From the NCBI GenBank assembly GCA_022827345.1, contig JAJDTB010000038.1, positions 1 through 64,000 on the forward strand: a stretch of 64,000 nucleotides of DNA. The letters run 5' to 3'. The DNA comes from Gemmatimonadota bacterium (GTDB taxonomy: Bacteria; Gemmatimonadota; Gemmatimonadetes; Longimicrobiales; Gaopeijiaceae). The translations under genes and the position numbers were made by a program. This document shows, one piece after another, positions 319 to 19,331 of the stretch. How positions within the stretch are numbered: position 1 is the stretch's first letter; the number at the start of each line of letters is the position of its first letter. The notes under the pieces are model-generated. The model did not search any database, was not told where the DNA came from, and saw nothing but the letters and a program-made list of their open reading frames with translations.

Positions 319-1530
319 TCACTGTGGAGGGACCAATCGCCTCCCTACAACATAGGGGACGCCGAGCGGATCGTCGCGGGTTCCCCAGACGTGCGTGGAA
401 GTCGCGTCCTCGGCCCGCATCGATTCGGGAAGGAGAATCCGGCGGGGTTCTCCAGACGCGTCGCCCCGCGGAATCGCATAATACACCCTCAGCGTGTCGG
501 ATCGCTCGAATGTCTTGAGCCACACGTCGTCCGAAGCCGAAAGGAAGATGTCGTCTGCGGCCGGCAGGTGCTCGGGCTTGTAGAGGCTTTCCTCGAACGC
601 CTGCAGATACGCGAGTTGCTGCGCGGGTGACCATCCGGGCCGCTGGAATTCCGGGCCCTTCTGGATATCGATGACTTCCTGAACCCGATCCGGAGTGAGT
701 CGCACCGGATCGAATTGCAGGCGCCGCTCCCAGAGCGTATCTCCTTGCGCATTCAGCTCGACTAGATCGAGAGACCCCGGTGGGCCATCGTTTTGCCGTA
801 AGACCAGGATTTTTCCATGCGCAAACGCCGTCTGATCGGAGTCTCCGAAGTACTGGCCCCCAAATGTCCGGCTGTCGTCCATTACGACCGTGAGCTGCGC
901 GTTGCGGATGTCCCGCCAGAAGATTTCCTCGGGTTGCTGCCACTGTCCGGCCTCGGAGCGCTGCACAAGCAGAATGGGCTCGCGCTCCATCGGTGGGTCT
1001 CCCCTCAACCCCGCGATTCTGGACGCAGCAAACAGCGGCCTGGCGATGTACCCTCCACCGTCGGCCGTGGGGGCTTCGATGCCGATACGGGTGTCCTGGT
1101 AGATCAGCGATGTCGTCACACCCATTTCGGTGTCCACCAGCATTCCGTCTGCCGTGTAGTGGGTGAAACGCGATCCCCAGCCCTCCCGCACCGAGAACCC
1201 GCCATTGTCCTTGAAATAGATGCGCGACGGCTGGGTGAACTCGCCCGGTCCCTCGCCCTTTCTGCCGACCACGAACTGAAGAGACCCATCAGGACTCCAC
1301 ACGCTGATCCGGGTCTCCATCGGATCGAGGACGAAGATTCGGTCCCGATTGGGGTCGGCCCGGAGGTAGGCCCAGTTGAAGAGCACACCCTGTTCGGCCG
1401 TGCCGGTGAACCTGTATTCCAGTTCGGTGACCCATGCCCGGTCCCCGCTCCCGGGCGTGTCGGAGCCATCGCCCCCGCACGCCAGACAAAGGACCAAAAG
1501 GGCGAACACGCCTGCCGACAGCCTTCTCAT
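319..1530 (-). CDS. 6-bladed beta-propeller (NHL-like) lipoprotein
   Basis: A protein of about 403 residues beginning MRRLSAGVFALLVLCLACGG, a signal peptide with a plausible but non-ideal lipobox Cys near residue 19. The body has repeated propeller strands, including the signature GRKGEGPGEFTQPSRI, which recurs in the 6-bladed beta-propeller family seen in Gemmatimonadota and Bacteroidota; later segments resemble strands of further blades. Function is unknown in detail; such proteins are usually periplasmic or surface-exposed and may bind ligands. The start ATG (1530) overlaps the addA stop as TGATG; a second ATG 6 bp upstream (1536) is possible. The frame is open far upstream through addA, but that part is only a shadow. 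Confidence 0.8.
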   Translation of the reverse strand: MRRLSAGVFALLVLCLACGGDGSDTPGSGDRAWVTELEYRFTGTAEQGVLFNWAYLRADPNRDRIFVLDPMETRISVWSPDGSLQFVVGRKGEGPGEFTQPSRIYFKDNGGFSVREGWGSRFTHYTADGMLVDTEMGVTTSLIYQDTRIGIEAPTADGGGYIARPLFAASRIAGLRGDPPMEREPILLVQRSEAGQWQQPEEIFWRDIRNAQLTVVMDDSRTFGGQYFGDSDQTAFAHGKILVLRQNDGPPGSLDLVELNAQGDTLWERRLQFDPVRLTPDRVQEVIDIQKGPEFQRPGWSPAQQLAYLQAFEESLYKPEHLPAADDIFLSASDDVWLKTFERSDTLRVYYAIPRGDASGEPRRILLPESMRAEDATSTHVWGTRDDPLGVPYVVGRRLVPPQ

Positions 1531-4500
1531 CACCATGACTCCGTCCTTCCCTGCGCGGTGAAGACGAGCACCCGCTCTCCGACCTCTTCGCCCGTCAGCT
1601 GGTGCCAGCATTCGGCGTAGAGGTCGATCTGGGCGCGGTACCGTCCCACCCGTTCCTCGAACTCCGGATCGTCGCCGGTGTCCGTCTTGTAGTCGGCGAC
1701 GACCCAGTGGGCTCCGTCCCTGAAGACGAGGTCGATCACGCCTTCGATGACCGCGGGGTGGTCGCCGCCGTCGTTTCGGTTGACCGCGAACGGGATTTCG
1801 CTGTGGCGCTCGGCGCTTGCCATGGCGCGGGCCCAGATGTCGGATCTGCGGACGGATTCGACCAGGGCGAGGAGCGCGGCCAGTTCGGTGGGTGCGCCGG
1901 TCGCATCGACAGGGCGCTCGTATTCGATGAGGAGGTCGCGAGCCAGCTGCTCGAGGGCGCCGCTGCGGATGCCCTCGCCCGCCACGGCGAGCACTTCGTG
2001 AACCACGCTGCCCCATTCGTAGCCGCCGGTCTCCGGGCCGACGGTTGCTGGAGCGAATTCCACCGTGCGGACGTCGTCCTCGGCGCCGCCGGTGTCGCCA
2101 GGTCCCTCGCCGCCCTTCGCGCGTCCCGTGACCGACTCCACCCGGTAGGTCGCTTCGCTGTTCTGCGCCACCGCCGCCGTCGCGTCCGCAATCGGCCCGG
2201 CAAGGTCCGTGGAACGATCCAGGCGGTCGGGCAGCGGCGGGAGATCGATCGGGAGCTCGTCGACCACCGCGCAGCGGCAGGACGACCCCGCACCGCCACT
2301 GCGCGACGCCGCCGCCACCCAGTCCTCGACGGTCTTCCACGGCGACGGCTTCACGATCCTCGGCAGCCCCGATCCGCTCGCGATCCAGAGCTCGTGCTTC
2401 GCGCGGGTCGCCGCCACGTAGAGAAGCCGGACCTGTTCGGCCGCCTCGAATTCCCTTTCCGTCTGCTGGCTCGTCTCCCAGTCGAGGGGCTGCGCGATGA
2501 TCTCCCTGGAAAACCCGCGGCTGACCACGATGGGAATGGTTCCGCGCGCCCGACCTCCCCCCTCCCGCGAGACGTGCATGTTGGGCGGCCAGTCATACAC
2601 CCCGAAGGGCGCGGCGAGGAAGACGACACCCGCCTCCAGCCCCTTGGCGCGGTGCAGATTCATGACGCGCACGCAGTTGGGCCTGCCGGGGATGAGGGGG
2701 GCCTCGGCGTCGTCCCAGTCGAGCGCCGTCTCCATGGCGTCCACGGCGCCGGCAAGGGACGAGTCGCCCTCGAGCGCCCGGGCGCGCACCGCGTCGAGGA
2801 GATAGACCAGGGCGCCCGCGCGCATCTCGCCGAGGGCGCCCGCAGCGGCGAGGGGGAAGAGCCCGATCTCGTCGACCAGGCGCTCCGCGGTCACGTCGGC
2901 GGGCTCGCGCCGCGCGAGGCGCCACCACCTGTGCAGCACTCCGATCGCTTCGGCAACCTCGCAATCTCCCGCAGGCCTGAAGTCGATGGACAGGCTGCCA
3001 CCGTTGTCCCGGTACCGCACGATGCGGTCGAGACTCAATCCAAAGAACGGACCTGTCAGCGCAGCGAGCACGCGCGTCCTGTGCTCGGGATCGGCGAGGC
3101 ACCTGAACAGCAGCAGAAAGGCACGCAGTTCGTCCTCGAAGCCCACGCCCGTGCCCGACACTTCGACCGGCAGGTTGCGGTCCTCCAGGGCGCGCGCGTA
3201 GACCGAAAGGAACCTGCGGGTGCGGGTGAGGATCATGAAGTCGCCGGGCTGACGGTCGCCGCTCGCGACCCGGTGCGCGATCTCGCCCGCGATCCGGGCC
3301 GCGTCGTCGCGCGCGATGTCGGCCTGCTTCGCGCCCGAAACCCGGTAGGTCGCCAGCAGCCCGGGCCCCTTCATCCGGGCCAGCAGCGGGGCGAACGAGG
3401 CCTGGCGGTCGGAGTCCTCCTCCGGGAAGCCCCCGTCCCCCTCGAAGACCCCCTGCACCAGTTCGCCGAAGTCTCCCAGCGAACGGAAGTTGGCCTCGAG
3501 GTGCAGCACTTTGCCGAAATCGGCGAAACGCCGCTTCACAAGCTCGTACAGAGAGATGTCGGCGCGCCTGAACCGGTAGATGCTCTGCTTGGGATCGCCG
3601 ACGACGAAGAGCGCGCCGGGGCGGGGCACGACACTGCGCCATTCGTTGCCGTTCGTGTCCGGATCGCTGGCAAGCAGCAGCAGGATCTCGGCCTGAAGCG
3701 GATCGGTGTCCTGGAATTCGTCGACGAGAACGCGCCGGTAGCGCTGCCCCAGCTCGCGGCGGGCCCGGGGGTTGCTCCGCAGGAGGTCCGCGGACAGGAC
3801 GAGCAGGTCCTGGAAGGTGACCTTGCCCTGGGCCTTCCGCTCGCCGGCATAGGTGTCGGCGGCGGCCTTGGCCACCCCCAGCGCGACCGGATACCTGTAT
3901 GCCCACCACCTCTTCAGCAGCTGGTCCGCCATTCCGCCGGCCTCGCCGAATTCCCTGACGTCCTCACCGAGCGCCTTGGCTTCGCGCTTTCCGACGGATG
4001 TGTCGGCCCACCGCTTCTGGATGGGCCTGGTTTTGATCCCGTGGAACTTGGCCACCGCGTCGAAGAAGACCGCGGGGTCGTCCCAGTCGAGCGACCGGCG
4101 CCAATAGAGGAGCGTGCGCATGCGCTTGCCCAGCGAGTCCCACCCGTCCGGCGGCTCCCTGCCCTTCATCAGCGCCGAGGCGCGGTCGAGGAGGTCGTCG
4201 AAGTCGCCGCGCAGCCGCGCGACGGCGCCCGGATCCGGCGGTCCGGCGGGTTCGTGAACGAAGTCCACATCCGGATTCTCGACCAGCTGGTCGAAGGCCT
4301 CCTCCAGCGCGGCGGGGGGGATTCCCAGGCGGGTCAACTCGAGCAGGCGGGGATCTGCATCCGCCGCGAGCCGTTCCAGGAAGTCGGTCCAGGACTTCTT
4401 CCGGGACCGGTACTCCTCCGTCTCCTGCACTTCGCGGAAGCCGGGGTCGAGTCCCGCTTCCAGGGGGCGCTCGCGCAGGAGCCTGGCGCAGAAGGAGTGG

Positions 4501-4895
4501 ATTGTGCCCAGGAAGGCCCGGTCGATATCCTGGATCGCCTCTTCCAGGAGCTTGCGCTGGGGGTCGCCCGGCTGGAGGCGCGCCGCCGCCCGTTCGAGTT
4601 CCACCTGAAAGCGCTGCCGGAGTTCGGCGGCGGCCATGCGCGTAAAGGTCACCGCGGCGATCTGCTCGACCTTGCACGCCCGGTTGCGCACCAGGGCCAC
4701 CATGCGATCGACCAGCGAGGTCGTCTTGCCCGAGCCTGCCCCGGCCTCGACCAGGAAGTTCCGTTCCAGGTCCTCGCGGATGCGGAGCCGCGCGTCCTGG
4801 TCCGGGGGATCGTCGCTGAAGCGCTCCCCGGGCCGGCTGTACACGACGCCGATATCGGGGCGGCGCGGCGCGGTTCCAACCTCCGGGCCGCTCAA
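1530..4895 (-). CDS. addA: AddA-type UvrD-family helicase/nuclease subunit
   Basis: About 1121 residues from a TTG start at 4895 that overlaps the addB stop (TTGA). It carries the superfamily 1A helicase motifs in order: Walker A GAGSGKT (about residues 52-58), VDEFQDTD (motif II), GDPKQSIYRFRRAD (motif III), HRAKGLEAG (motif V) and LYVAATRAKHEL (motif VI). The C-terminus has a RecB-type PD-(D/E)XK nuclease with GVIDLVF and VADYKTD. Together with AddB it would process double-strand DNA ends for RecA loading. The size is near that of other AddA proteins (roughly 1100-1250). Residues upstream of the TTG show no family resemblance and lie in addB, so the longer open frame was not used; a GTG about 17 codons further in is another possible start. 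Confidence 0.92.
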   Translation of the reverse strand: MSGPEVGTAPRRPDIGVVYSRPGERFSDDPPDQDARLRIREDLERNFLVEAGAGSGKTTSLVDRMVALVRNRACKVEQIAAVTFTRMAAAELRQRFQVELERAAARLQPGDPQRKLLEEAIQDIDRAFLGTIHSFCARLLRERPLEAGLDPGFREVQETEEYRSRKKSWTDFLERLAADADPRLLELTRLGIPPAALEEAFDQLVENPDVDFVHEPAGPPDPGAVARLRGDFDDLLDRASALMKGREPPDGWDSLGKRMRTLLYWRRSLDWDDPAVFFDAVAKFHGIKTRPIQKRWADTSVGKREAKALGEDVREFGEAGGMADQLLKRWWAYRYPVALGVAKAAADTYAGERKAQGKVTFQDLLVLSADLLRSNPRARRELGQRYRRVLVDEFQDTDPLQAEILLLLASDPDTNGNEWRSVVPRPGALFVVGDPKQSIYRFRRADISLYELVKRRFADFGKVLHLEANFRSLGDFGELVQGVFEGDGGFPEEDSDRQASFAPLLARMKGPGLLATYRVSGAKQADIARDDAARIAGEIAHRVASGDRQPGDFMILTRTRRFLSVYARALEDRNLPVEVSGTGVGFEDELRAFLLLFRCLADPEHRTRVLAALTGPFFGLSLDRIVRYRDNGGSLSIDFRPAGDCEVAEAIGVLHRWWRLARREPADVTAERLVDEIGLFPLAAAGALGEMRAGALVYLLDAVRARALEGDSSLAGAVDAMETALDWDDAEAPLIPGRPNCVRVMNLHRAKGLEAGVVFLAAPFGVYDWPPNMHVSREGGGRARGTIPIVVSRGFSREIIAQPLDWETSQQTEREFEAAEQVRLLYVAATRAKHELWIASGSGLPRIVKPSPWKTVEDWVAAASRSGGAGSSCRCAVVDELPIDLPPLPDRLDRSTDLAGPIADATAAVAQNSEATYRVESVTGRAKGGEGPGDTGGAEDDVRTVEFAPATVGPETGGYEWGSVVHEVLAVAGEGIRSGALEQLARDLLIEYERPVDATGAPTELAALLALVESVRRSDIWARAMASAERHSEIPFAVNRNDGGDHPAVIEGVIDLVFRDGAHWVVADYKTDTGDDPEFEERVGRYRAQIDLYAECWHQLTGEEVGERVLVFTAQGRTESW

Positions 4896-7800
4896 AGGAC
4901 CGGGCCCTCGTCGTCCCACTTGCGTACCTGCCGCAGCAGGGACAGCTCGTCGAGGCTGTCGAGGTTGCGTTTGGTCCATTCGGCGACGCCGCAGCTCACC
5001 TGGCCCCGGTCGCTGGCCTCCGCGCCGCAGACCTCCTGGTAGTCGCAGTAGCGGCAGTCGTCTTTGGCGCTGTCGGTGGCGGGGAACCAGCCGCGCTCCA
5101 GCGCCTTGAGGAGGACTTCGACAAGCTCGCCGCCGTGCTTCAGCTTCCCGGTGCCGTACCTGCGGACGCGGTTCTCGCCTCGCCGCGTGGGAAAGTGGTA
5201 CTCCATCGCGTCGACCGGCCTGCCGTACAAGGCCGCCACGGCGGCGGTGTACACGAAATGCTGCAGTCGGCGCCCGCCGTTGTACACCTGCGACCGGCTG
5301 CTGTAGCCGTACCCGCCGCCGGTCTTGTAGTCGACCACGCGCAGGTGCGCGCCGAGGTCGTCCACACGGTCCACGACCCCGCGCACCATGACCGACCCGT
5401 CTCCGGCCCCGATTCTCATTTCGTCGTCCATCCCGAATCGCCATTCGAGCTGCGCCCACCGGGGCGACCTGTCCCGGATCATCTCGACGAACGACCGGGC
5501 ATCGTCGCGAAGCGCGTCCATCTCCCAGGCATGGAGCGCGTCACTCGGCGACGGCGTCTTCAGGAGTTGCTCGGCGCCCTTCCGGTCGACCAGCCGGAGC
5601 GCGATGTCGAGGAATCGCTCCTCCGCGGGATTTACTCCCCGGGCCGCCGCCTCCTTCAGCGTCTCCTCGTAGACGGCGTGGAGCAGGCTCCCCCGCTCCA
5701 GGGCGTTGAGCCAGCGGTCGGGGTCGAATTCGGGATCGTCGGGCGGACGGGCCTTCAGGATGTAGCTGAAGAGAAACCGCCGGGGACAGGCGCCGAGAGT
5801 CTCGAGCCCGCTCGCCGAGAAGGGTCTATCGGACCAGTTTTCGTAGGATAAGGGCGGCGAATGCGTGCCCAGGAACCCTGAGTGCACCGTCGGCTCGTCC
5901 CGGTCGAGGGCGTCGAGGAGAGCCTGGCCCATTCCGAGGCGGGGAAACGATCGCCCGACGGCTGCCAGTCCGTCGCGGAGCCGGCCGGCTTCGGTGGTGA
6001 GCGCGCGCAGCCACACGTCGCTCGCGTCGAGATCGACGGCGATCCCGGGCCGCGGGAGGCGTGACTCGGTCAGGCCCAGATGTCCGTCCAGATCCTCGAA
6101 GGTGAGGGTCGAGTCGCGCTGGCGCAGCCGGAGGGCCTGCAGCAGCTCGGGGGCGGGCGTGAGTTCCCGGCTGTCTCCCGGGTCCCAGCAGGCGTAGCTG
6201 AGGACGACAGTGCCCCTCAGTCGGGCAAAGAGCCGGGCGAAGTTGAATCGGGCCTCGACGACCCTGTCCGCCGCCAGGGGCAGTTCGCCGCCCCCTATCC
6301 GGAAGCGCTCCTGGTCCCCGATCAGCGGATCTTCGTGGAGCGAGCCGAGGACGGATCCCGAGTCGAGGCCGACGATGAAGGTGACGCGCCGGCCGGTGGC
6401 GCCTCCATGCCTGAGGTCGGTCATGTACAGATGGCCCGGGGCGGAACTCCACGGCGCGATCCCTTCCATTCGGGGCGCCGGGATGCGGATCTCCAGGTAT
6501 GACTGGACGATCGCCGCCGCCGAAGCGAAGTCGGTCGGCCGCTTCACCGTGGCCTCGATCCGCTCCAGCTGGCGGAGGAGCCGCTGCCGGGCAGTCTCGT
6601 CGGTGTCGGTACCGGGGGCCACCCGCGCCAACAGGCTCTTCACGCCGGCAGCGACCTGTGAGGGGGACACGCGTCCGTCCGTGGGCGGGGTGGCCCGGAG
6701 CACGGGTCGGAGGAGTCCGCGCAGCGCGCGCAACTCCTCGCCCCGGCGCTCCTTGCGGCGCTGCAGCCGCTCCTCGTCGTCGAAGCGTCCGGCCGGCAGC
6801 GAGTCGAGGGTCCGCAGCGCGTGTTCGATCTTGTCGAGGTGGCGCTCACGTCCCCACCCGATCCGCAGCCGCCGCAGGGCACGGGCGAGGCGGGGGCCGC
6901 CCGGCCGGGGCCTGTCCTCGCTCCCGGTGCCCGAGCGCGGGCCGCCCAGCCTCTGCCCAGCTCGCTCCCCGGCGCCCGGACGCGGAGGAATCACGTCGCC
7001 GGCCTCGACCAGGGCCCGGAAGAGCGACTCCTGGAAGCCGCTCGCGATCCAGCGGAAGTATGTCGAGACCACCCTGCCGGGGCGGGTGCGTTCCACCGGC
7101 AGCCCGACCGCGAAGGTCACGGGCACGCCCATCGGCTCGGCCAGCGCGTGGAGCGCCGATCCGTACGACCATGGATCCGCTGCGACGATCTCGACCTCGT
7201 CCCAGCGCGCGCCCATCTCGAGCGCCCGGCGCAGCACCCCTCGCAGTTCGTCCTGGACGGACGCAGCCGTGAAGAGCTCGATGCGCTCCGGGACGCGCTC
7301 CGGCGGTATCTCCGCGCCGCACCGATCCACCGCGTGCAGGTAGCTTCCCGGAGCCTCGGGCGGCGCGACGTCCCACAGGATCCCCTTCGGGACCTTCAGG
7401 CCAACAACGGGATCGGTCTTGAGCAGGACGGCGCCGAGCCGCCGCAACCCGGCCAGAAAGCGCCCTTCGAGGCCGCGCTCGGCAAGGCCCGGAAGGAGGA
7501 AGAACCGGGTGTCCGGGGGCAGCGCGTCGTGTTCGTCGCGACCGAGGACCGCGATGGCCCTCTTCAGCATGCCCGCCATGTCCGTGCGGCCGCCGTCCCG
7601 CAACAGCGTCTCGTAGCGGGCCAGCACCTGCGTCACCAGGGCCCTCTTGTTGAAACCGCGATGGGCGCCGGCGGGCGGGTCGCCCGGGGGGTGGATGCCG
7701 CCGCCGCGCAACGTGGAGGCCGACTTGCGCACCGCGTCCCGGAAGCCGGTCTTCTCGGCGAGTTCTCCGAAACGGGAGAAGCGCGGCGAGGCGATCACCT

Positions 7801-8134
7801 CGTCGATTGCCCGCTCCATGAGGGCGTGTTCGTCGAAGGTGTCGACGATCGTGCGACCGGTCCGGGCCAGTTCCCGCGCAACGATTTTTGTTGCGAGGGC
7901 ACGTAAGGTGTTGATTTCAAAGCCCACCCAGGACTGGCCGCGCAACGCCACCTGCCTGAGCAGCTCCTTGCCCTCGCCGCGCGTGCGGGCGATCAGGACC
8001 TTGCGGGCGCGGCCGCCGTCCCGTGCGATGCGCTCGAGTTCCCGGACCAGGATGCCGGCCCCGGCGCGATCCGCGGGAGGGGGCGGAGCGGGGCGGCCGC
8101 GGCCCTCCTCGAGGTCCAGGTAGAGCTGGGTCAC
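4892..8134 (-). CDS. addB: AddB-type nuclease subunit with Fe-S nuclease domain
   Basis: 1080 residues, GTG start at 8134 overlapping the preceding gene's stop (GTGA). The N-terminus has a degenerate P-loop (ARTRGEGKELL instead of GxxGxGKT), suggesting no ATP hydrolysis at this site. The C-terminus has the PD-(D/E)XK core GVVDRVDD...VVDYKTGGG, flanked by Cys residues arranged as in AddB: one in GACPRRF before the nuclease core and three in CRYCDYQEVC near the end, the expected four ligands of the 4Fe-4S cluster that staples this domain. It partners AddA, whose gene follows with a 4-bp overlap. Divergence from characterised AddB is high through the middle. Confidence 0.88.
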   Translation of the reverse strand: MTQLYLDLEEGRGRPAPPPPADRAGAGILVRELERIARDGGRARKVLIARTRGEGKELLRQVALRGQSWVGFEINTLRALATKIVARELARTGRTIVDTFDEHALMERAIDEVIASPRFSRFGELAEKTGFRDAVRKSASTLRGGGIHPPGDPPAGAHRGFNKRALVTQVLARYETLLRDGGRTDMAGMLKRAIAVLGRDEHDALPPDTRFFLLPGLAERGLEGRFLAGLRRLGAVLLKTDPVVGLKVPKGILWDVAPPEAPGSYLHAVDRCGAEIPPERVPERIELFTAASVQDELRGVLRRALEMGARWDEVEIVAADPWSYGSALHALAEPMGVPVTFAVGLPVERTRPGRVVSTYFRWIASGFQESLFRALVEAGDVIPPRPGAGERAGQRLGGPRSGTGSEDRPRPGGPRLARALRRLRIGWGRERHLDKIEHALRTLDSLPAGRFDDEERLQRRKERRGEELRALRGLLRPVLRATPPTDGRVSPSQVAAGVKSLLARVAPGTDTDETARQRLLRQLERIEATVKRPTDFASAAAIVQSYLEIRIPAPRMEGIAPWSSAPGHLYMTDLRHGGATGRRVTFIVGLDSGSVLGSLHEDPLIGDQERFRIGGGELPLAADRVVEARFNFARLFARLRGTVVLSYACWDPGDSRELTPAPELLQALRLRQRDSTLTFEDLDGHLGLTESRLPRPGIAVDLDASDVWLRALTTEAGRLRDGLAAVGRSFPRLGMGQALLDALDRDEPTVHSGFLGTHSPPLSYENWSDRPFSASGLETLGACPRRFLFSYILKARPPDDPEFDPDRWLNALERGSLLHAVYEETLKEAAARGVNPAEERFLDIALRLVDRKGAEQLLKTPSPSDALHAWEMDALRDDARSFVEMIRDRSPRWAQLEWRFGMDDEMRIGAGDGSVMVRGVVDRVDDLGAHLRVVDYKTGGGYGYSSRSQVYNGGRRLQHFVYTAAVAALYGRPVDAMEYHFPTRRGENRVRRYGTGKLKHGGELVEVLLKALERGWFPATDSAKDDCRYCDYQEVCGAEASDRGQVSCGVAEWTKRNLDSLDELSLLRQVRKWDDEGPVL

Positions 8135-9276
8135 GGTGACTGGGCCTGCGGGGCGGCGGCTCCGCGGAGGGTGGCCGCATCGAACATCGCTCCGAGCCGC
8201 CGCCCTTCCCGACCCCGCCAGATCCCCCGGTGATACGCGTCGCTGGCCAGCAGGGAGAGCGTCACGGTGGCCTCGCCGAAGACCATCCGCTCGCGGGCCG
8301 GGTCGACCTTGCCCCAGGTGGTCGCCTCGCGCAGGGTGGAGCCCGAGAGGCCGCCGTCTCGTGCATCGGCCACCGTGAGCTGCACGGCGTACTTGTGCAT
8401 GGCGACGGAGGCCGCGCGGGGCGCATCGCCCTCATCCCCCTCAGCCTCCGCCAGCATCCGCGCGGCCACCACCGCGTCCTGCGCGAAGTTCTTCGGCACG
8501 CCCCCGCCCACCATCAGCAGCCCGGTCCCGGCCGCCGCCAGCTTGATCCGGGCGAGTTCGTGGAAGTCCTTTCCCGAGTCGAAGGCGATGTGCGGCAGCC
8601 CCAGGGCGGCGGCCCGGACCCGGTGCGCGACCACACCGAAACCCGCCGACGAGTCGCTCAGCGCCGGCACGAAGACCGGCACATCGCGGCGGTGCGCGGC
8701 GAGCACGATCGACCGGGCCTCCGGGCGATGGCGCTCCAGGTACGTGCCCAGCTCCCCCACCAGCTCGCGGCTGGAATACGGCCGCGCGTCGAGCCCGTCG
8801 AAGATCCCGGCCACGACCTCGTCGCAGCGCTGCAGCTCGGCCTCGTCGATGTAGGTGTCGTAGATGCGGTCGATCCCCAGGTCGCGGAGCTGCTCGTCGC
8901 TCGCAACCGGCGCGTCGGGCGATCCAGGCGCCATGTAGTGGCGGAAGCCCAGCGCCTCGAAGAAGTCCTGGTCGACCACGATGGCGCCGGTGGCCACGAT
9001 CGCGTCGACCATGTCGCACTCCACCAGCGCGATGAGGGCCTCCTTCAGCCCCGCCGACACCAGCGACCCCGCCAGCGTGAGGATCACCGTGCAGTCGCGG
9101 TCGGCGAGCATCTCGGCGAAGACGTCGGCCGCTTCGGCCAGGTTGCGGGCCTGGAATGCGGCGTTGCGGTACGTGTCGATGACCGCGCGGCCGTCGAAGG
9201 CGGTCACGTCGATGTGCGCGACGGGGGTCGCGAGGAGTCGGCTTCTGGTGACTGGCCCGTGAGCGCGTTCCGTCAA
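8131..9276 (-). CDS. Deoxyhypusine synthase-family protein
   Basis: About 381 residues from a TTG at 9276 that is preceded at 8 nt by a strong ribosome site (AGGGAGG); a GTG 39 bp upstream (9315) is an alternative. The protein has the NAD-binding fold features of deoxyhypusine synthase: LTLAGSLVSAGLKEAL, IVATGAIVVDQDFFEALG, PVFVPALSDSSAGF, GGGVPKNFAQDA, and the active-site segment TTWGKV, where Lys (about residue 323) aligns with the Lys that forms the enzyme-imine intermediate. Bacteria lack eIF5A, so the true reaction is probably aminobutyl transfer from spermidine or a related amine to another acceptor, as in homospermidine synthase-like members; this is inference. It is the first gene of the addB-addA transcription unit. 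Confidence 0.85.
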   Translation of the reverse strand: MTERAHGPVTRSRLLATPVAHIDVTAFDGRAVIDTYRNAAFQARNLAEAADVFAEMLADRDCTVILTLAGSLVSAGLKEALIALVECDMVDAIVATGAIVVDQDFFEALGFRHYMAPGSPDAPVASDEQLRDLGIDRIYDTYIDEAELQRCDEVVAGIFDGLDARPYSSRELVGELGTYLERHRPEARSIVLAAHRRDVPVFVPALSDSSAGFGVVAHRVRAAALGLPHIAFDSGKDFHELARIKLAAAGTGLLMVGGGVPKNFAQDAVVAARMLAEAEGDEGDAPRAASVAMHKYAVQLTVADARDGGLSGSTLREATTWGKVDPARERMVFGEATVTLSLLASDAYHRGIWRGREGRRLGAMFDAATLRGAAAPQAQSP

Positions 9277-9388
9277 ACGACTGGCCTCCCTGTGTTTCTG
9301 ACCGCGGGCGTCCACCGCCGGAATCGCCCAACCCTAAAGGTAAGCCCGGGGCCCGATGCGACGGACGCGGGAACCACCCTCCAGCCCC

Positions 9389-12331
9389 CTAGAACACCAC
9401 CTCGGCACCAACCCTGAAGGCCCGGTTCGGAGACAGGGTAATGCTGCTCTCACCCCCCAGCTCGAGACCGCCGAGGGTAATCCCGCTGAGCTCTCCGTCG
9501 ATCATCCGGTTGCGGGACCAGATCCACAGGTTGCGGCCGTTTACGTAGAGCGTCGCCCGGCTGGCGCCCAGGGGGTCGGCCCAGTCGTCGGGCAGGGTGT
9601 AGCGCACGGCCACCTCGCGAAGCTTGAGGTAATCCCCGTCGTAGAGGAAGGCGCTGCGGGCGGTGCTCTGGCTGTACCTGCCGTGCACGGTGCCGTCGGT
9701 TCCGTACTGGGTGGGGAAGGCGTAGGGGCACCCCTCGGCCGCCGCGGCTTCGGTGCCGCAACGCACCAGTTCACGGCGGTAGATGCCGTTGAAGGTCGCC
9801 CAGATGGAGCCCCAGTCGAAGACGTGGTGGCCGGCCGCCCAATCCGCGAGGGCGGTGATGGTCAGGTGGCTGCCTATCGAAAGGGTGGTGTTGGCGCCGC
9901 CGCTCTTGTCGGGCACCGGGAACGTGCCGGTGAAGTTGCGGACCGCGGCGTCGGGCAGACCGTCCCCGTTCGAGTCATCCGGCATGGTGACCCACCACGC
10001 GCCCACGGGGCCGCCGCGGCAGGTGTCCAGGTTTTCCGGCTCGGAGACGCTCCAGCACCCGGTCACGCGCTTCTGGTCGCTGTCGACCGAGAAGTCCGCC
10101 ACGCCGCCCATGTCCGTAACTTCGTTGTGGTTGTAATGGAACGTCGCGCCGAGACTCCAGGCCAGGCGCTGCGCGTTGATCAACTGCAGGTTGAGCGCCG
10201 CTTCAACGCCCCGGTTGAGGATCTCGCCAACGTTCTCCTGCTGGGTCCCCTGGCCGGTGACCGGAGCCCGTGGCACCAGGAAGAGGGCGTCGGTGGTGCG
10301 GGCGTCGTAGACGGTCAGGTCGAGTCCGATCCGGTTGTCCCAGAGCGCCGCGTCGATCCCGGCCTCGACCGTGGAGGTGGTCTCGGGGCGCAGGTCGGGG
10401 TTGCCGGGATTCGCGAACCTGGGGGCCGACTCGCCGCGGAACGGACTGGCCGAGAAGGTCCGATCCTTCAGGAAGGCGCCCGGGAACTTGCCGGTCTCCC
10501 CGTACGCCGTCCTGATCTTGAGCTCGTCCACCAGGGGCACATTCACATCTTCCGACAGAATGTACGATGCCGTCGCCTTCGGATAGAGCTCGGTGTCGAT
10601 GTTGTCCCCGAAACTCGATCCCGCGTCGACGCGGAAACCGCCGCCGAGGTAGAGCTTGTCCCACAGACTCAGCTGCTCGTCCAGGTATAGCCCGCCACTG
10701 AACACTTCGAGGTTCGCCTCGCCGGCGATAATGTCCGCCGCGGTATGGAAATGGTAGCTTCCCGGCAGGCCGAAGGTCCGCCCGTTCGCGTTGATGATGC
10801 TCTCTTCCTGGCGGAATCCCTGCACGCCCACGGTCAGCGTGGAGGCGATCGCGCGGCCGGGACCCGCCCACGCGTAGGTCGTCCCGGCGTCCAGCGACAC
10901 GGACGTGAATGACCGATCGCGGCGGTTGAGCTGACCAGCGGCCTCGCCGGGGGTGAATCCGATCGGCTCGTGCAGCCGCTGCTGGTTCGTCCGGTTGTCG
11001 GTCCCCACCGTGACTTTGGCAGACAGTTGGTCGCGGACGTTCCAGCGGATGCCCGTCGACAGGATGAAGCGGTTGACCCATTCGTCGATGTCCGGCAGGA
11101 GGAAGATGTCCAGTGCCTCCTGGAGGGTGGAGGCGCCGGAGAAAAAGAGGGCGTCGCCGACCTCGAAGGTGGTCAGGGGATCCCCGATCGAAGCGCCGTT
11201 GTAGAGGCGCTGGAAGTTGTGGCGGACGTAGCTGCCCGAGAAATCCAGGGTGAAGTCTTCGCTAAGCGACGCCTGCAGGCCTCCCCGGAGGCTGTAGTTG
11301 GTGCTCCCGTCCTTCGGCTGGGTGCCGGTGCGGTCCTCCAGGCGGCCGCTGACGCTGTAGGTCACGTCCGCCGTTCCCCCGGACACTCCCAGGTAGTAGT
11401 TCTGCGTGTGGCCGTTCCTGAAGTAGAGATCGCGCAGGAAGGTCTCGGCCACTTCGCCGGACTCCACGCGCTCGGGAAAGACCAGACCCGTGTCGAAGAT
11501 GTACCTGAGTTCGGCCATCTCGATCCCCTGTTCGACGCGTGCCGTGATTCTCGCCGTCCCCGGGGCCCCCTTCTTCGTGAAGATCTGAATCACGCCCGTA
11601 GCCGCGTCCGATCCGAACAGTGTCGATGCCGCGCCTCCCCTGGTGATCTCGATCCGGTCGATGTCGGTGGTCAGCAGGTCCGCCAGGGCCGACGACTGCT
11701 CACCGCCCGTGATCGCCGACGTGGCCTGATCGTTGTCCACGCGCACGCCATCGACGTAGATGACCGGAGTCTGGGCGCCGAACACCGACGAGACCCCCCG
11801 GAAACTGATGAGCGATCCCGTCCCCGGATTCGCCGACGTCGCGCTCACCGTAGCACCTGTCACGCGGCCCTGCAGCAGCTGGTCAACGGATTGGACCGGC
11901 GCGAATTCGAAGTCATCCGCGGATAGCACCTCGACCGAAGTGCCGAGCGCCCGCCGCCGCGTTTCGGCGCCCAGACCCGTGACGATGATCTCGTCGAGGG
12001 CGATCGCCGTCGGCGACATCTCGATTTCAAGCGTGGCCGTCTGCCCGGCCGTAACCGGGACGGTCTGCTCCACCGCGTCGTAACCGAGCATCGTGACCTG
12101 CACCGTGTGCTCGCCGGCAGGCACATTCAGCAGCACGAAACGACCGGACGGGCTGGTAAGTTGGCCGATCCTGCTCCCTGCCACCACCACCTCGGCGTTG
12201 CCGAGCGGCCGCATGGACACACCGTCCAGGACCCGCCCCTGAATGACGCCGGTCTGGGCCTGTGCCGGTGCCGAACCGACCGCCAGCGCCATTAGCATGG
12301 TGAAGCCGGCGACAGTCACCTTCCCATGCAA
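9389..12331 (-). CDS. SusC/RagA-family TonB-linked outer-membrane protein (copy 1)
   Basis: About 980 residues. Order: signal peptide ending AQAQ, a carboxypeptidase-regulatory-like/CNA-B domain (GVIQGRVLDGVSMRPLGNAE...), plug domain with the SusC-type PVIYVDGVRV, then a long barrel ending SPNRAFRVGAEVVF with terminal Phe. It would import large ligands with TonB energy and a SusD lid. The start is uncertain: TTG 12331 gives a good signal peptide (HGKVTVAGFTMLMALAVG); GTG 12319 and TTG 12397 are alternatives. It follows susD by about 100 bp. Compared with the second copy, an extra loop with two Cys (GCWSVSEPENLDTCRGG) is inserted before a calcium-type DSNGDG loop. Confidence 0.9.
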   Translation of the reverse strand: MHGKVTVAGFTMLMALAVGSAPAQAQTGVIQGRVLDGVSMRPLGNAEVVVAGSRIGQLTSPSGRFVLLNVPAGEHTVQVTMLGYDAVEQTVPVTAGQTATLEIEMSPTAIALDEIIVTGLGAETRRRALGTSVEVLSADDFEFAPVQSVDQLLQGRVTGATVSATSANPGTGSLISFRGVSSVFGAQTPVIYVDGVRVDNDQATSAITGGEQSSALADLLTTDIDRIEITRGGAASTLFGSDAATGVIQIFTKKGAPGTARITARVEQGIEMAELRYIFDTGLVFPERVESGEVAETFLRDLYFRNGHTQNYYLGVSGGTADVTYSVSGRLEDRTGTQPKDGSTNYSLRGGLQASLSEDFTLDFSGSYVRHNFQRLYNGASIGDPLTTFEVGDALFFSGASTLQEALDIFLLPDIDEWVNRFILSTGIRWNVRDQLSAKVTVGTDNRTNQQRLHEPIGFTPGEAAGQLNRRDRSFTSVSLDAGTTYAWAGPGRAIASTLTVGVQGFRQEESIINANGRTFGLPGSYHFHTAADIIAGEANLEVFSGGLYLDEQLSLWDKLYLGGGFRVDAGSSFGDNIDTELYPKATASYILSEDVNVPLVDELKIRTAYGETGKFPGAFLKDRTFSASPFRGESAPRFANPGNPDLRPETTSTVEAGIDAALWDNRIGLDLTVYDARTTDALFLVPRAPVTGQGTQQENVGEILNRGVEAALNLQLINAQRLAWSLGATFHYNHNEVTDMGGVADFSVDSDQKRVTGCWSVSEPENLDTCRGGPVGAWWVTMPDDSNGDGLPDAAVRNFTGTFPVPDKSGGANTTLSIGSHLTITALADWAAGHHVFDWGSIWATFNGIYRRELVRCGTEAAAAEGCPYAFPTQYGTDGTVHGRYSQSTARSAFLYDGDYLKLREVAVRYTLPDDWADPLGASRATLYVNGRNLWIWSRNRMIDGELSGITLGGLELGGESSITLSPNRAFRVGAEVVF

Positions 12332-12435
12332 ACAAGAGCCGGCCGACGGAGCCCGAAGGCCCCGCCGGCCGGAGTTCTCCACGCCGCCGCGCAACAAGAC
12401 CAGTGCCCTGACGCCGACGACAGCCTGCCAGCCGC

Positions 12436-17018: not shown

Positions 17019-19331
<2,313 letters not shown>

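Follow-up and report, generated by a model that had tools for sequence, protein, structure and literature searches.

The window analysed in this work is a stretch of 64,000 nucleotides on contig C38 of a Gemmatimonadota genome, here called G000; the named relatives closest to it are MAGs from Gemmatimonadota. On the minus strand of the window lies a gene for a deoxyhypusine synthase (DHS)-like protein, which begins with TTG at 9276 and is followed on the same strand by addB and addA (Table 1). The TGA stop of the gene (8133-8131) and the GTG with which addB begins at 8134 have the letters GTGA in common, in agreement with the 4-bp overlap pointed out in an earlier, sequence-only reading of this DNA. 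By Pfam profiles, the AddB-like protein carries a PF12705 nuclease domain and the AddA-like protein both UvrD and PF12705 domains; the two are divergent, scoring 219 bits against an NCBIfam cut-off of 708 for AddA and 27 against 486 for AddB. Upstream of the DHS-like gene, also on the same strand, are two receptors of the TonB/SusC type, a gene that occupies the SusD position and has only a sub-threshold match, to TPR, and gyrB. A promoter and terminator scan of positions 8100-9700 found none.

Table 1. Genes and sequence features at the locus, in window coordinates
Feature	Position	Strand	Basis
CdmS-type deoxyhypusine-synthase-fold gene, 381 aa, TTG start	8131..9276	-	ORF reading, profiles, residue alignment, structure
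GGGAGG, Shine-Dalgarno-like, 8 nt ahead of the TTG start	9285..9290	-	read directly from sequence
GTGA, overlap of the DHS-like gene's stop with the GTG start of addB, 4 bp	8131..8134	-	sequence
Codon of K323 (human DHS K329, CdmS K299)	8308..8310	-	alignment; PMC10981699
Codon of F213 (human Asp243, CdmS Phe204), family-invariant	8638..8640	-	alignment; PMC10981699
AddB-like gene, PD-(D/E)XK nuclease domain at the C-terminus	4892..8134	-	ORF and profiles
AddA-like gene, UvrD helicase and PD-(D/E)XK nuclease, start codon not fixed	1530..4890	-	ORF and profiles
SusC/RagA-type TonB-dependent receptor, immediately upstream of the DHS-like gene	9389..12397	-	profile
gyrB, conserved anchor of the gyrB-(SusC/D)-(cdmS)-addB-addA block	17019..19022	-	profile, gene-order comparison

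Fold, active-site residues and subfamily

The sequence-only reading had described a DHS-like enzyme that keeps the NAD fold and the active-site Lys, and this description held. The protein matches PF01916 ('DS') over residues 32-345 with an E value of 3.7e-83 and 279.6 bits against a gathering score of 27, covering model positions 2-286 of 288. Its AlphaFold model (pLDDT 88, pTM 0.88) matches solved DHS structures, with a Z score of 34.5 and an rmsd of 2.0 Å over 301 residues for the archaeal enzyme 8put and a Z score of 32.5 for human DHS. K323 of the WGK motif falls on Lys329, the catalytic residue of the human enzyme, and D307, S311, E317 and W321 are aligned with human D313, S317, E323 and W327. 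Human Asp243, Asp316 and His288, the last of which is a spermidine ligand in the human enzyme, are not kept, and Phe213, Leu310 and Asn263, respectively, stand in their places; F213 and N263 are invariant in an alignment of 42 family members.

In CdmS of Thermus thermophilus, S67, E136, D143, F204, L286, E293 and K299 have been named for agmatine binding or catalysis (PMC10981699). The window protein has all seven in order, as S71, E145, D152, F213, L310, E317 and K323, in a comparison that is a test of spacing made from the published residue numbers, not from the CdmS sequence itself. The exact CdmS spacing (69/7/61/82/7/6) together with all the residues, including the Leu, occurs in seven insertion-free relatives from several phyla, and 41 more relatives have the spacing but carry Cys for Leu286; substrate specificity is not readable from such residues with certainty.

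The profile searches place the protein in the same subfamily. Of the NCBIfam models, NF002699 (BGAN synthase, named for caldomycin, which CdmS makes) scores highest, at 485.8 bits, which is 14 bits below the curated cut-off of 500 that serves as the NCBI annotation threshold. Relatives at 51-62% identity pass this cut-off with 530-586 bits, and lineage insertions have probably cost the window protein some of its score. Of 14 control genomes searched, 3 gave NF002699 matches over the cut-off. All DHS profiles score the protein far under their cut-offs, the best of them reaching 273 bits and the true-DHS model TIGR00321 only 209 against 304.

A further DHS-fold paralogue of about 30% identity was seen in other genera of the family (L128-L137 except L134). 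It lacks the CdmS motifs and has Tyr or Phe at the position of human Asp313, and the one copy that was scored reached 116 bits at best, far under every curated DHS, SpeY or CdmS cut-off; these paralogues are an unclassified subfamily.

Agmatine coupling and the alternative reactions

From the fold, the active-site residues, the family placement, the genomic company and the co-occurrence with agmatinase, we infer the reaction, the substrate (agmatine or putrescine) and the end product. We propose that the window enzyme, which almost certainly links two small molecules, probably couples agmatine in the manner of CdmS, and that it is most likely a polyamine enzyme whose pathway ends in homospermidine. 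The Thermus thermophilus CdmS joins two agmatines to caldomycin without using putrescine or spermidine, and its product goes to a ureohydrolase, which converts it to homospermidine (PMC10981699). By analogy with this enzyme and with human DHS, NAD+ would oxidise one agmatine, K323 would hold the 4-guanidinobutyl group as an imine, and transfer of this group to the amine of another agmatine, followed by reduction, would give caldomycin. A separately encoded agmatinase-type ureohydrolase would then remove two ureas from caldomycin to yield homospermidine. A polyamine product such as homospermidine had already been thought probable in the sequence-only reading, and the NF002699 match, the CdmS residues and the polyamine-gene operons of relatives all point the same way. 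The puzzle raised there, namely that bacteria lack eIF5A, the substrate of DHS, is answered by the known bacterial DHS homologues SpeY and CdmS (PMC10981699, PMC9992855).

Elsewhere, cdmS genes of relatives keep company with polyamine and arginine genes. In Pelagibacter, an arginine-decarboxylase-like gene (ADC), cdmS and an agmatinase gene stand in a row; a SpeD-like gene, agmatinase and cdmS occur in this order at a Desulfobacteraceae and a Sericytochromatia locus (L022 and L035), and agmatinase adjoins cdmS at two further loci (L018 and L030). Published SpeD homologues with arginine decarboxylase activity lie in clusters with speB and 'speY' (PMC10407285). The DHS-like protein of the Pelagibacter cluster (L074:6793-9913) has the CdmS residue set except for Leu286->Cys, and the cluster, which is read in the literature as SpeY acting on putrescine, may be an agmatine-coupling pathway. 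In the sister genus, cdmS is divergent from argR, in the order argR, unknown gene, argC, argD-like aminotransferase; the gene between argR and argC (L121:12138-13202, 354 aa) has a P-loop-like GTCMNSGKT motif and gave no Pfam or NCBIfam match.

The agmatinase of G000, encoded on another contig (C30), scores 180.4 bits against a TIGR01230 cut-off of 174.3. Within the genus, all 21 cdmS-bearing genomes have an agmatinase over the cut-off, and the two that lack cdmS, G024 and G027, do not (Fisher p 0.004). In the addB tree G024 and G027 do not form a sister pair, G027 being nested among cdmS carriers; cdmS and agmatinase were therefore probably lost together twice. General gene loss could account for part of this co-absence, because G024, which sits on a long branch, and G027 have the smallest genomes of the genus. 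Across the whole family agmatinase is found without cdmS too, and therefore the co-occurrence is informative within the genus only. In G000, G023, G019 and G022 the agmatinase is split in its profile matches; in G000 (C30:61253-62164) an insertion of about 40 residues within the catalytic domain splits the match. Another ureohydrolase-family protein of G000 (L082:1420-2766, on C75) has an N-terminal signal or lipobox-like segment, by which it is apparently exported, and similar matches recur in the genus.

As for the agmatine supply, searches of G000 (97% complete) with PF01862 (PvlArgDC), PF02675 (AdoMet_dc) and PF01276 (OKR_DC) gave no match, and no arginine or ornithine decarboxylase was recognisable there. 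Its single PF02784 match is LysA, and throughout the genus PF02784 matches number at most one per genome. Agmatine may be imported or made by an unrecognised enzyme. Several relatives are presumably sponge-associated, judged by isolate names. In some sponge microbiomes, an enrichment of polyamine transporters has been described (PMC9531527).

The main alternative, which we regard as rather unlikely, is a SpeY-like homospermidine synthase, in which the same fold and Lys chemistry would join putrescine to putrescine (or spermidine) and agmatinase would act first to yield the putrescine. This is how the literature reads the DHS homologues of speD/speB/speY clusters and of Pelagibacter clusters, as SpeY using putrescine (PMC9992855, PMC10407285), and the agmatinase neighbours are compatible with either order of steps. 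Against it, the SpeY-type 'homospermidine biosynthesis protein' model (NF001980/PRK00770) gives the window protein 169.9 bits, below its cut-off of 450, while NF002699 scores high; the positions of human Asp243 and Asp316 hold Phe and Leu as they do in CdmS, which in Thermus left putrescine and spermidine unused. A reaction as in true DHS, in which a protein (EF-P-like or another acceptor) would receive an aminobutyl or guanidinobutyl group, is far less probable still. The fold and the catalytic Lys are common to DHS, and archaeal DHS has been discussed as possibly using agmatine; the best match, however, is a small-molecule synthase with DHS models more than 200 bits lower, and the family operons carry polyamine genes and no translation factors. 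Neither the profiles nor the neighbours support modification of another protein, which had been suggested earlier, or modification of the eIF5A type.

The addAB neighbourhood

The linkage to addB, singled out from the sequence alone, stood within the genus and mostly failed beyond it. In 19 of the 21 congeners with cdmS, addB lies on the same strand within 190 bp, and a strain-specific artefact is ruled out by this genus-wide linkage; the refutation named in the sequence-only reading, a linkage confined to this strain, thus does not apply. The other two comprise one with a gap of about 3 kb that holds a SusC-type gene (G012) and one broken by a contig end. The sister genus, by contrast, has addB and cdmS on separate contigs, and the addB neighbourhood is missing from nearly all other relatives. 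An Ignavibacteria contig (L019:1500-9029) carries AddA-like and AddB-like genes and then, about 450 bp on and on the same strand, a CdmS-type gene; about thirty other lineages were inspected and it is the only such case, and this second, apparently independent neighbourhood is within reach of chance. At another locus (L040) the helicase upstream was considered as an AddA and rejected, as it matches the window AddA through shared UvrD-type helicase regions only and lacks an adjacent AddB-like gene.

These data bear on the view that cdmS works with AddAB, whereby its polyamine product or the protein itself would tune chromosome condensation or end resection, with the overlap serving to secure co-translation. 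The tight spacing in the 19 congeners and the Ignavibacteria contig speak for such a partnership. Against it stand the unlinked genes of the sister genus, the spacing, which drifts within the genus from -12 to 186 bp and to 3 kb in G012, and the genomes that keep addB-addA without cdmS, namely G024 and G027, at the same gyrB site, and G036, of another genus, with its gyrB-(SusC/D)-addB-addA block; a search of the AddAB, polyamine and operon literature, judged by title, found no paper on such a link. We hold the partnership to be very improbable, and give equally little credence to its genus-wide form, in which synthesis of homospermidine (or caldomycin) would be coupled to AddAB end resection and the overlapped cdmS-addB-addA operon would tune DNA compaction or nuclease access in repair. 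The suggested role in DNA condensation or nuclease control has no support, in view of the unlinked relatives, the two congeners with addAB and no cdmS, and the polyamine and arginine genes that neighbour the family elsewhere.

On the simplest reading, cdmS would have been inserted before addB in an ancestor of the genus and kept with the surrounding stable block. Its place upstream of addB-addA would then follow from its membership of this gyrB-SusC/D-addB-addA block, which is stable in the one genus. The gene and addAB probably share a transcript but no function, and the tie to repair most likely reflects chance gene order within a single genus.

Comparison with known systems

The window gene most likely encodes an ordinary polyamine enzyme, of a kind already known and easy to misname; a link to repair would have been the surprise, and it was not upheld. 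By residues and operons, one widespread group of bacterial 'deoxyhypusine synthases', from Gemmatimonadota, Phycisphaerae, Ignavibacteria, Pelagibacter and others, is placed with the agmatine-coupling enzymes, and therefore agmatine may be the substrate for some genes that the literature describes as putrescine-using SpeY. The genus itself keeps a CdmS-type enzyme and agmatinase without a recognisable arginine decarboxylase.

The window protein resembles CdmS (TTHA1570 of Thermus thermophilus; NF002699) in fold, in catalytic Lys and in all seven named substrate-site residues, with collinear spacing in the insertion-free family members and an agmatinase-type ureohydrolase in G000. It differs from CdmS by about 20 extra residues in two insertions and a score 14 bits short of the NCBI cut-off, while its gene adjoins addAB in a genome with no recognised arginine decarboxylase. 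With the cyanobacterial SpeY (NF001980) it would share homospermidine as the end product, besides the DHS fold and the Lys; however, SpeY uses putrescine, its model gives the window protein 170 bits where 450 are required, and the positions of human Asp243 and Asp316 follow CdmS. In comparison with human and archaeal DHS (TIGR00321), the fold (Z 32-34), the W-G-K motif and the equivalents of D313, S317 and E323 are alike, and NAD-dependent imine chemistry is expected, whereas Asp243->Phe, Asp316->Leu and His288->Asn, profile scores far below the cut-off and the bacterial host set the window protein apart.
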